Assembly (NCBI RefSeq): GCF_004765795.1
Contig: NZ_SBIV01000002.1
Coordinates: 186,001-250,000, forward strand
Direction of reading: 5' to 3'
Length of the DNA stretch: 64,000 nt
Source of the DNA: Halorussus marinus
GTDB lineage: Archaea; Halobacteriota; Halobacteria; Halobacteriales; Haladaptataceae
Every line of letters begins with the position of its first letter. Positions within the stretch are counted from its first letter, which is position 1. A program made the translations under genes and the position numbers. A model generated the notes under the pieces. It was not told the DNA's origin and searched no databases. It saw only the letters and a list, made by a program, of their open reading frames with translations. Below are positions 33,367 through 35,799 of the stretch, piece after piece.

Positions 33367-33633
33367 GCGTGTTTCACCGTAGGTCGTCTGTCGGACTTAA
33401 GGGTTATTATTCGACGACGGCGTGCCGTCGGCTACCGACCGGACGCCGCCTCGCGAACCGGGGTCGATCGGCGCACGGGACGGCGACCGAGACGAGAGAG
33501 CCGACCGTGAAGCGCTCGGAGTCGCGTTTACAGACACTTTCGAGTGTTAACGCGGGATCGAATCGGGACGGCAGTGTCAGACGCTCGGTAAGATTGAAGT
33601 GGTGGGGGCGACGACATCGTGACGAACAGTTAC

Positions 33634-34176
33634 ATGAGCAAGATAACGTTCCGCGCGGACGAGGACCTGATCGAGCGCATCGAGGCCCTCGACGAGTCGA
33701 AGAGCGAGGTCATGCGCGAGGCGCTCCGGGCGTATCTCGACGCCGAGAGCGAGGCGTCCGGCGGGGCCGAGGAGAGTCTCGACGGCCTCCTCGCCGAGCG
33801 CGTCGACGAGCTCGTCGCCACGCGCCTCGACGCTCGAGAGCCTGAGGCCCGCTCGTCCGTGAGACCGCAGGGCGGTCGGGACGTGAACGTCAACGTCACG
33901 CTCGAATCCGACGGCGCGGTCCGGGAGCGAGCGGCCGACGAGTCGGCCCGGGACGGGGACACCACGGACGACCGCGACCGACAGAGCGAGCGGGACTGCG
34001 AGTGTGGCCAGTGCGGGGAGTCGCTGTCGGACGATCACGTCTACTGTCCGAACTGCGGGGAGAAGGCCTCGCGACGCGCCTTCTGCGAGTGCGGCGACGA
34101 GGTTCGGTCGGACTGGGCGTTCTGTCCGGGCTGTGGCCGGCGCACGCCCGCGGCCGACGTCCTCGACAGAACGTAA
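33634..34176 (+). CDS. cdrL: CdrL: ribbon-helix-helix regulator with zinc ribbons
   Basis: The 180-residue protein starts with an RHH DNA-binding domain (SKITFRADEDLIERIEAL, residues 2-19, then two helices to about 45), has an acidic linker, and ends in a double zinc ribbon with CECGQCG, CPNCGEK, CECGDE and CPGCGRR. This is the long cell-division regulator that, in Halobacterium, binds upstream of the cdrS-ftsZ2 operon, as encoded just downstream here. ATG 33634 is preferred; in-frame GTG 33619 would add five residues. A GTAAGAT half-site at 33588-33594 precedes it and may allow autoregulation. Confidence 0.88.
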   Translation: MSKITFRADEDLIERIEALDESKSEVMREALRAYLDAESEASGGAEESLDGLLAERVDELVATRLDAREPEARSSVRPQGGRDVNVNVTLESDGAVRERAADESARDGDTTDDRDRQSERDCECGQCGESLSDDHVYCPNCGEKASRRAFCECGDEVRSDWAFCPGCGRRTPAADVLDRT

Positions 34177-34189
34177 GACGCCGTTTTAC
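34173..34189. promoter_or_regulatory. Imperfect GTAAGAC/GTTTTAC operator at the end of cdrL
   Basis: GTAAGAC (34173-34179) and GTTTTAC (34183-34189) are inverted around three bases, with one mismatch from a perfect repeat. The first arm contains the cdrL stop codon. It is the same half-site as the perfect operator at 34236-34253 and lies just upstream of the cdrS TATA box (34203-34211). Confidence 0.6.
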
Positions 34190-34202
34190 TACTCGCCGTT
34201 AA

Positions 34203-34211
34203 TTATTTAAG
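34203..34211 (+). promoter_or_regulatory. TATA box of cdrS-ftsZ2
   Basis: TTATTTAAG lies in an AT-rich stretch (34187-34211). A transcription start about 26 bp downstream (near 34233) would leave a 5' leader of about 125 nt before cdrS, unusually long for this window. Confidence 0.6.
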
Positions 34212-34235
34212 TTCTGACTATGTGGGTTAGCCCAC

Positions 34236-34253
34236 GTAAGACGGTTGTCTTAC
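34236..34253. promoter_or_regulatory. Perfect GTAAGAC-N4-GTCTTAC operator at the cdrS transcription start
   Basis: A perfect inverted repeat of seven bases with a four-base spacer lies at or just after the expected transcription start. Ribbon-helix-helix proteins usually bind such short palindromes. The position would block initiation or escape, so repression by CdrL or CdrS is the simplest reading. Confidence 0.75.
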
Positions 34254-34300
34254 ACGGCGCCCGAGAGTCGGCGTACGGCCGCGCTCCGGGCGGATGCGGC

Positions 34301-34338
34301 GTAAGACAGGCTGTGTGAGCATCCGCATGCCGTCTTAC
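34301..34338. promoter_or_regulatory. Third GTAAGAC/GTCTTAC pair in the cdrS leader
   Basis: GTAAGAC (34301-34307) and GTCTTAC (34332-34338) are inverted with 24 bases between. Both arms match the operator at 34236-34253 exactly. They lie in the leader 20 to 57 bp before the cdrS start and could allow DNA looping or an RNA hairpin. Confidence 0.65.
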
Positions 34339-34357: not shown

Positions 34358-34540
34358 ATGGAGCGTGTGACACTTCGCATTCCGAAACAGCAGATCGAGG
34401 AGGTCGAACAGATGGTCGAGACCGGGGAGTTCCCGAACCGTAGCGAGGCGATTCGGGCCGCGGTCCGCGACATGCTCAACGAACACGACGAAGGCACGAC
34501 AGAGCAGACGACGAACAAGCGGTCGTGGGCCAAGGTGTAA
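34358..34540 (+). CDS. cdrS: CdrS: short ribbon-helix-helix cell-division regulator
   Basis: The 60-residue protein is a minimal RHH factor: strand [12 protein letters not shown] (2-13), helix [18 protein letters not shown], and helix [10 protein letters not shown]. In Halobacterium, CdrS is needed for timely division and controls ftsZ2 expression. It is separated from ftsZ2 by only two bases (stop 34538-34540, ATG 34543), so they are co-transcribed. Its own leader carries the GTAAGAC repeats described separately, a likely site for autoregulation or control by CdrL. Confidence 0.93.
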
Positions 34541-34542
34541 GC

Positions 34543-35799
34543 ATGCAGGACATCGTGCAAGACGCCTTGGAGAACGCCGAACAGGAGAACCGCGAGCTGG
34601 ACGCCGACACCAACGGCGACGAGTTTGGCGACCCCCGAATCGTGATCGTGGGCTGTGGCGGCGCGGGCAACAACACGGTCAACCGACTGTACAACATCGG
34701 AGTCGACGGCGCGGACACCGTCGCGATCAACACCGACAAGCAACACCTCAAGATGATCGAGGCCGACACGAAGATCCTGGTCGGCAAGTCCCTCACCAAC
34801 GGCCTCGGCGCGGGCGGGGACCCCTCGATGGGCGAGCGAGCCACCGAGATGGCCCAGGGCACGATCAAGGAGGTACTCGGCGACGCCGACCTCGTGTTCG
34901 TGACCGCGGGCATGGGCGGCGGCACCGGGACCGGTGCGGCCCCGGTCGTCTCGAAGATCGCCAAAGAGCAGGGCGCCATCGTCGTCGGGATGGTCTCGAC
35001 CCCGTTCAACGTCGAGCGCGCACGGACGGTGAAGGCCGAGGAAGGGCTCGAAAAGCTCCGCAACGAGGCCGACTCCATCATCGTGCTCGACAACAACCGG
35101 CTGCTCGACTACGTCCCGAACCTGCCGATCGGGAAGGCCTTCTCGGTGATGGACCAGATCATCGCCGAGACGGTCAAGGGGATCTCGGAGACGATCACCC
35201 AGCCGAGCCTCATCAACCTCGACTACGCCGACATGACCTCGATCATGAATCAGGGCGGAGTCGCGGTGATGCTGGTCGGCGAGACCCAGGACAAGAACAA
35301 GACCGAGGAGGTCGTCCGGGACGCGATGAACCACCCGCTGCTCGACGTCGACTACCGCGGCGCCTCGGGCGGGCTCGTCCACATCACGGGCGGTCCGGAC
35401 CTCACGCTCAAGGAGGCCGAGTCGATCGCCTCGAACATCACCGAGCGACTCGAAGCCAGCGCCAACGTCATCTGGGGCGCGCGCATTCAGGACAACTACA
35501 AGGGGAAGGTCCGGGTCATGGCCATCATGACCGGCGTCCAGAGCGCCCAGGTCCTCGGCCCGAGCACCCAACAGCAGGCCGACAAGTCCCGCGAGCAGAT
35601 GCGCGACGTCGACGCCCAGTCGTTCGACGCCAGCCAGAACCTCGAAACGGGCGCCACCGGCGGCTCGTCCCGTGAAGAGAGCCTCGGCGGAACCGACCGG
35701 TCGACGAAGACCACCGGCGACTCGGGCGGGTGGGGTGCCAAGAGCGACGGCGGGCAAAACGAGGTAGAGCAGAACAACGGGCTCGACGTCATTCGCTGA
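34543..35799 (+). CDS. ftsZ2: Cell division tubulin FtsZ2
   Basis: The 418-residue GTPase polymerises at midcell. It has the tubulin signature [10 protein letters not shown] (about 126-135), the N-terminal [12 protein letters not shown] and the T7 loop [11 protein letters not shown] (about 224-234) containing the catalytic Asp. The C-terminal 70 residues are disordered, rich in Gly, Ser and Gln, and end in GLDVIR. Linkage to cdrS identifies it as FtsZ2, which in Haloferax acts in constriction, with FtsZ1 needed for assembly. The ATG at 34543 is preferred over the in-frame ATG 34525, which lies inside cdrS. Confidence 0.96.

Follow-up and report, generated by a model that had tools for sequence, protein, structure and literature searches.

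A class-wide array of GTAAGAC boxes before cdrS-ftsZ2 in Halobacteria is probably the operator of CdrL

Which protein reads the GTAAGAC boxes that precede the division genes cdrS and ftsZ2 in Halobacteria, and how would it use them? At the locus considered here, within a window of 64 kb (the whole stretch of DNA that was analysed, with every feature below on its forward strand), the intergenic region is framed by cdrL (33634-34176), whose product carries the Pfam domains RHH_1 and CdrL_M and a double zinc ribbon, and by cdrS (34358-34540), which encodes a 60-aa RHH protein (RHH_1) and is followed by ftsZ2 (34543-35799; Tubulin/FtsZ_C). The first-pass annotation had named CdrL and CdrS as RHH proteins and the Pfam matches bear this out, so that an RHH regulator is encoded beside the boxes, as expected for an RHH-type operator array. 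The best explanation of the locus as a whole, and one that we consider likely, is that the boxes form a CdrL operator array, at a promoter that was handed over from ancestral CdrS self-control.

The region between cdrL and cdrS contains six boxes, named 1L, 1R, 2L, 2R, 3L and 3R, which make up the three inverted pairs originally described. Site 1 is GTAAGAC-gcc-GTTTTAC at 34173-34189, with an exact box 1L (34173-34179) that is kept in part of the class, and a box 1R (34183-34189) in which GTCTTAC has become GTTTTAC, just upstream of the BRE/TATA. Site 2 is GTAAGAC-ggtt-GTCTTAC at 34236-34253, where 2L (34236-34242) and 2R (34247-34253) form a near-invariant 7-4-7 dyad. Site 3 is GTAAGAC-N24-GTCTTAC at 34301-34338, with 3L at 34301-34307 and 3R at 34332-34338, the latter adjoining the G-rich run that precedes the cdrS start codon. 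Box 1L contains the TAA stop codon of cdrL (34174-34176), so that box and protein end constrain each other. The number of exact GTAAGAC/GTCTTAC copies in the window is ordinary (5 observed, 3.04 expected) but their clustering is not: 5 of 5 lie within the 166 bp from 34173 to 34338, for which the chance under five random placements is about 2e-10. Across the 3.76-Mb genome GTAAGAC-N(0-30)-GTCTTAC occurs twice, both times here, and the reversed-pattern control gives 0. From the window and genome counts, the clustering reported before cdrS-ftsZ2 is real and far from chance.

A TATA-like element, recognised from its sequence at 34204-34211, has its first base 30-34 bp upstream of box 2L in 130 of 130 genomes. 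By this spacing the transcription start of cdrS-ftsZ2 would fall at 34234-34238, which places box 2L at the predicted start, in agreement with the earlier assignment of the perfect pair, and site 3 in a leader of ~120 nt. The boxes would thus flank the TATA box, begin at the putative start and continue into the leader. A short TGTGGGTA-like stretch (34219-34229) can be made out in several genera ~8-15 bp ahead of the inferred start. An inverted repeat at 34221-34234, GTGGGttagCCCAC, was rejected as a further element since its right arm is not kept in relatives.

A scan of 391 Halobacteria genomes recovers the inverted pair in 381, mostly once or twice per genome, with a reversed control near 0. 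It lies 112-137 bp before cdrS in all 29 of the class-scan loci inspected, and the same array architecture recurs in 80 named loci. The GTAAGAC pairs are thus kept class-wide, and the half-sites, whose absence upstream of cdrS in related species had been named beforehand as grounds for abandoning the idea, are present there. Among the ten genomes that lack an exact pair, three have only weak RHH hits for CdrS, and in these the cdrS locus seems to be missing from the assembly, while the other seven possess cdrS with substituted boxes (for example GTAAGAC-N5-GTCATAC, or a triplet of boxes at 10-bp intervals). One genus (L121-L123) has lost the inverted layout; its start site carries the boxes GTATGAC/GTAAGAC/GTATGAC, each 10 bp on from the last.

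When 130 leaders were scored for their anatomy, site 2 reached the full score in 124, box 3R in 124 and box 3L in 96. The centre base of 3L is the freest position, and the box is best written as GTA-N-GAC. The spacer of site 2 measures 4 bp in 101 genomes, 5 bp in 17 and 2-3 bp in 12. With its series of short dyad boxes, set at one helical turn in the 7-4-7 form of 101/130, the array has the layout of RHH-type operators. The distance from the start of box 1R to 2L is 52 bp in 46 of the 57 well-conserved cases. The first-pass annotation had suggested that the pair with the 24-base gap may allow looping, an idea that gains little from the comparison: the spacing of site 3 varies from 26 to 35 bp, start to start, with several modes, and 3L is degraded in 34/130 genomes when 3R is kept in 124/130. 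Strict looping by the wide pair was accordingly rejected, its spacing and presence varying too much. In loci of Natrialbales (L014, L034, L056 and others) the GTAAGAC array is interspersed with GTCTGAC boxes of the CdrS type, which lie within site 3 and close to the BRE; these may possibly be dual-input promoters.

CdrL is the most likely ligand of the GTAAGAC boxes, to judge from published binding data set against sequence, because the one ChIP-seq peak published for it lies here and because CdrL occurs where the boxes do. ChIP-seq of CdrL-FLAG in Halobacterium salinarum, with the same genes and the same intergenic region, found one reproducible peak genome-wide, upstream of cdrS-ftsZ2 (Darnell et al. 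2020, PMC7439475). The array lies in the region of that peak, as placed at ChIP resolution, and it is found in a genome (G018) whose bacterio-opsin matches the Hbt. salinarum protein with 100% identity. Boxes and cdrL are present or absent together, and cdrL stands directly upstream in the Halobacteria loci examined, early families included. The main text of PMC7439475 gives no motif, box positions, site conservation or statement on outgroup promoters, and motif, palindrome and inverted repeat are absent from it as terms. A literature search for GTAAGAC, covering sources other than preprints, returned unrelated sequences only.

Divergent Halobacteria families have a second RHH gene upstream of cdrL (L083:524-733, L191:2589-2879). 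It could be argued that a haloarchaeal DNA-binding protein other than CdrL uses the array, given this further RHH gene beside cdrL in some early families and given that CdrL binding is known at ChIP resolution, below that of single bases. We regard this as very improbable, since the one reproducible ChIP peak of CdrL falls in the same intergenic region as the one place in the genome where the paired motif occurs.

The second candidate is CdrS, for which ChIP-seq in Haloferax volcanii identified 18 sites with a symmetric motif, at ftsZ1 (at -50) and 17 others, threonine ammonia-lyase among them, and does not list the cdrS promoter (PMC8406309). The GTAAGAC array is present in three Haloferax species, all other than H. 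volcanii. At the listed targets a different dyad appears: GTCNGAC-N4-GTCNGAC is found at about -50 in the ftsZ1 promoters of many among 31 genomes, and before threonine ammonia-lyase in two genomes. The present genome has two exact copies, one before ftsZ1 and one before a CetZ gene. The latter lies at G000:C6:188376 (L174), and cetZ1 expression falls in a cdrS deletion of Hbt. salinarum (PMC7439475). The site before cdrS, GTAAGAC-N4-GTCTTAC, does not match this dyad. Since GTCNGAC dyads occur at published CdrS targets and the cdrS promoter is unlisted, GTCNGAC dyads seem to be CdrS sites, different from the GTAAGAC boxes, which would most likely belong to CdrL. The first-pass interpretation of the array as the operator of the cell-division switch is thus strongly supported by class-wide conservation and the single CdrL peak, with CdrL as the likely ligand, and CdrS seems to use the GTCNGAC dyad, a related box of a different type.

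The relation between the two box types becomes clearer outside the class. We compared 39 outgroup leaders (150 bp before cdrS) from other classes of the phylum, methanogen relatives without cdrL; these contain 88 copies of GTCNGAC, present in 39/39, against 1.07 expected, and a single GTAAGAC against 0.62 expected, whereas 99 Halobacteria leaders contain 459 copies of GTAAGAC against 3.55 expected. The outgroup GTCNGAC boxes follow an 11-bp lattice: of 124 spacings, 112 measure 11, 22, 33 or 55 bp. No cdrL was found within 1.5 kb in 41 outgroup loci. The GTAAGAC pair itself was matched in 22 of 311 genomes outside Halobacteria against 97 of 311 for the reversed control (a hand count), so that these matches are attributable to chance. 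Within Halobacteria, cdrL and GTAAGAC are already found together in divergent families with small genomes. Because outgroups without cdrL carry CdrS-type boxes at cdrS-ftsZ2, the ancestral state was probably CdrS self-control, a direction read from sequence comparison rather than from a tree. We infer that the promoter passed from CdrS to CdrL in the ancestor of the class, through the acquisition of CdrL and a change of one base in the boxes. Along the recognition strand CdrS has R-[IV]-T-x-R in outgroups and Halobacteria alike, and CdrL has K-[IV]-T-F-R throughout; a published analysis places CdrL and CdrS in separate RHH clades.

Might CdrS itself still bind the boxes, in plain autoregulation with CdrL as a helper only? 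CdrS is an RHH protein, its box type occupies the outgroup cdrS promoters and differs from the haloarchaeal type by one base, and in Hbt. salinarum the expression of ftsZ2 drops when CdrS is lost. However, its own promoter is missing from the 18 H. volcanii sites in a genus whose other members have the array, and the listed targets ftsZ1 and threonine ammonia-lyase carry GTCNGAC dyads instead, which makes autoregulation of this kind unlikely. A mixed dimer of CdrL and CdrS on each box, with CdrS on the GTC half and CdrL on the GTA half, would let the promoter sense the ratio of the two proteins; the box does join exactly one half of a CdrS box to a variant of the other (GTA-N-GAC), around a centre base that is free in 3L, and the T-x-R part of the recognition strand is common to both proteins. 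Mixed RHH dimers are unusual, however, and the site did not appear in CdrS ChIP-seq, and we consider this arrangement quite unlikely.

The neighbouring promoter of cdrL shows a different picture. The letters of the GTAAGAT half-site noted before cdrL are indeed there (33588-33594), but the feature is not: comparison of 80+ cdrL upstream regions aligns this position with the core promoter (BRE/TATA) of cdrL, GGAAGATTGAAATA, in relatives, with no conserved box, and GTAAGAT was rejected as a half-site. A CdrS-type box, GTCAGAC, lies just upstream of it (33576-33582), and a GTCNGAC box just before the cdrL core promoter is seen in many relatives (L037, L121 and others). CdrS may control cdrL while CdrL controls cdrS, which would form a two-way circuit.

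Haloarchaeal mRNAs are mostly leaderless, and the segment between boxes 2R and 3L (34254-34300) contains a predicted stem-loop with strong RNA folding, the mean z being about -2.3 to -2.5 with the boxes excluded. In 88 genomes this segment without its boxes scores a mean z of -2.31 against dinucleotide shuffles, and a mean z of -2.46 compares with -0.13 and -0.49 in coding controls, so that folding exceeds both shuffled and coding sequence. The transcribed boxes could therefore be kept for leader RNA pairing, 2R with 3L and 2L with 3R, in an attenuator-like or translation switch: both pairings are predicted with a mean probability of 0.9, the flanks of 2R and 3L match better than shuffled partners, and published ribosome data from Hbt. 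salinarum point to control of the operon after transcription (PMC8303175). Against this, the same box stands upstream of the TATA box, where it is expected to lie outside the transcript, and the pairings lack the expected compensated changes: the 3L substitutions GTATGAC and GTACGAC leave the partner uncompensated, and compensatory changes within clades are few. The segment had no match in Rfam. A single consensus RNA structure for the class was likewise rejected, as the alignment is too diverged, RNAalifold found box pairs only, and folds differ within clades; the leader stems of ~90 genomes are lineage-specific. The alternating complementary segments 2L, 2R, 3L and 3R recall trp-type leader attenuation, but unlike that system the boxes are uncompensated and recur upstream of the TATA, and no terminator or leader peptide was seen. 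Box 1 and the uncompensated changes led us to reject RNA pairing as the sole reason for the boxes, a reading that we rate as highly improbable, while as an added layer it is likely: by sequence, the DNA role of the boxes is likely to be primary and the structured leader a second, RNA-level layer.

How CdrL would work on this promoter can be sketched from related systems. In the arrays of the RHH repressors MetJ (met boxes), Arc, CopG and NikR stacked dimers bind short dyad boxes about one helical turn apart, and in RHH structures one dimer covers a box of the present size. Each 7-mer before cdrS, as a quasi-dyad (GTA-N-GAC), would fit one RHH dimer, and two CdrL dimers, separated by one helical turn, may occupy the 7-4-7 site at the transcription start, with further dimers immediately before the BRE/TATA and within the leader. 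As the product of the neighbouring gene, CdrL would so set the level of cdrS-ftsZ2 transcription, in the simplest mode by gating polymerase loading or the start at site 2, and CdrS would act on its own boxes (GTCNGAC-N4-GTCNGAC) at ftsZ1, cetZ1 and other genes. In the Halobacteria ancestor, the gain of CdrL together with a change of GTC to GTA in each box would have passed the promoter to CdrL. Unlike the MetJ, Arc, CopG and NikR arrays, the present one combines an archaeal core promoter, a near-unique site per genome, class-wide conservation and an exchange of box type between lineages.

Both the contact of CdrL with these letters and the sign of regulation are our inferences. Expression of ftsZ2 is very high (PMC7439475), which is in tension with a repressor at the start site, and the array may thus tune or activate. 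For the CdrL operator it is slightly awkward that a homodimer should read an asymmetric box, and the unfixed spacer of site 2 counts against it as well. A composite account, in which a new RHH regulator took cdrS-ftsZ2 by a one-base change in every box, the resulting hybrid box (GTA and GTC halves) is read by CdrL-CdrS mixed dimers, and the transcribed boxes add a second control layer by pairing within the leader RNA, appears to us unlikely as a whole.

A CdrL operator would give a base-level site for the only known target of this regulator and open the CdrL-CdrS-FtsZ2 circuit to direct tests by point mutation, and the different CdrS box would explain why CdrS went undetected at its own promoter. 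A structured leader is indicated in a group where leaders of any kind are the exception. The exchange of boxes between archaeal lineages at one division promoter, together with the R-to-K difference in the recognition strand, would constitute a compact case of natural regulatory rewiring, in which one regulator seems to have taken over a key division gene from another.
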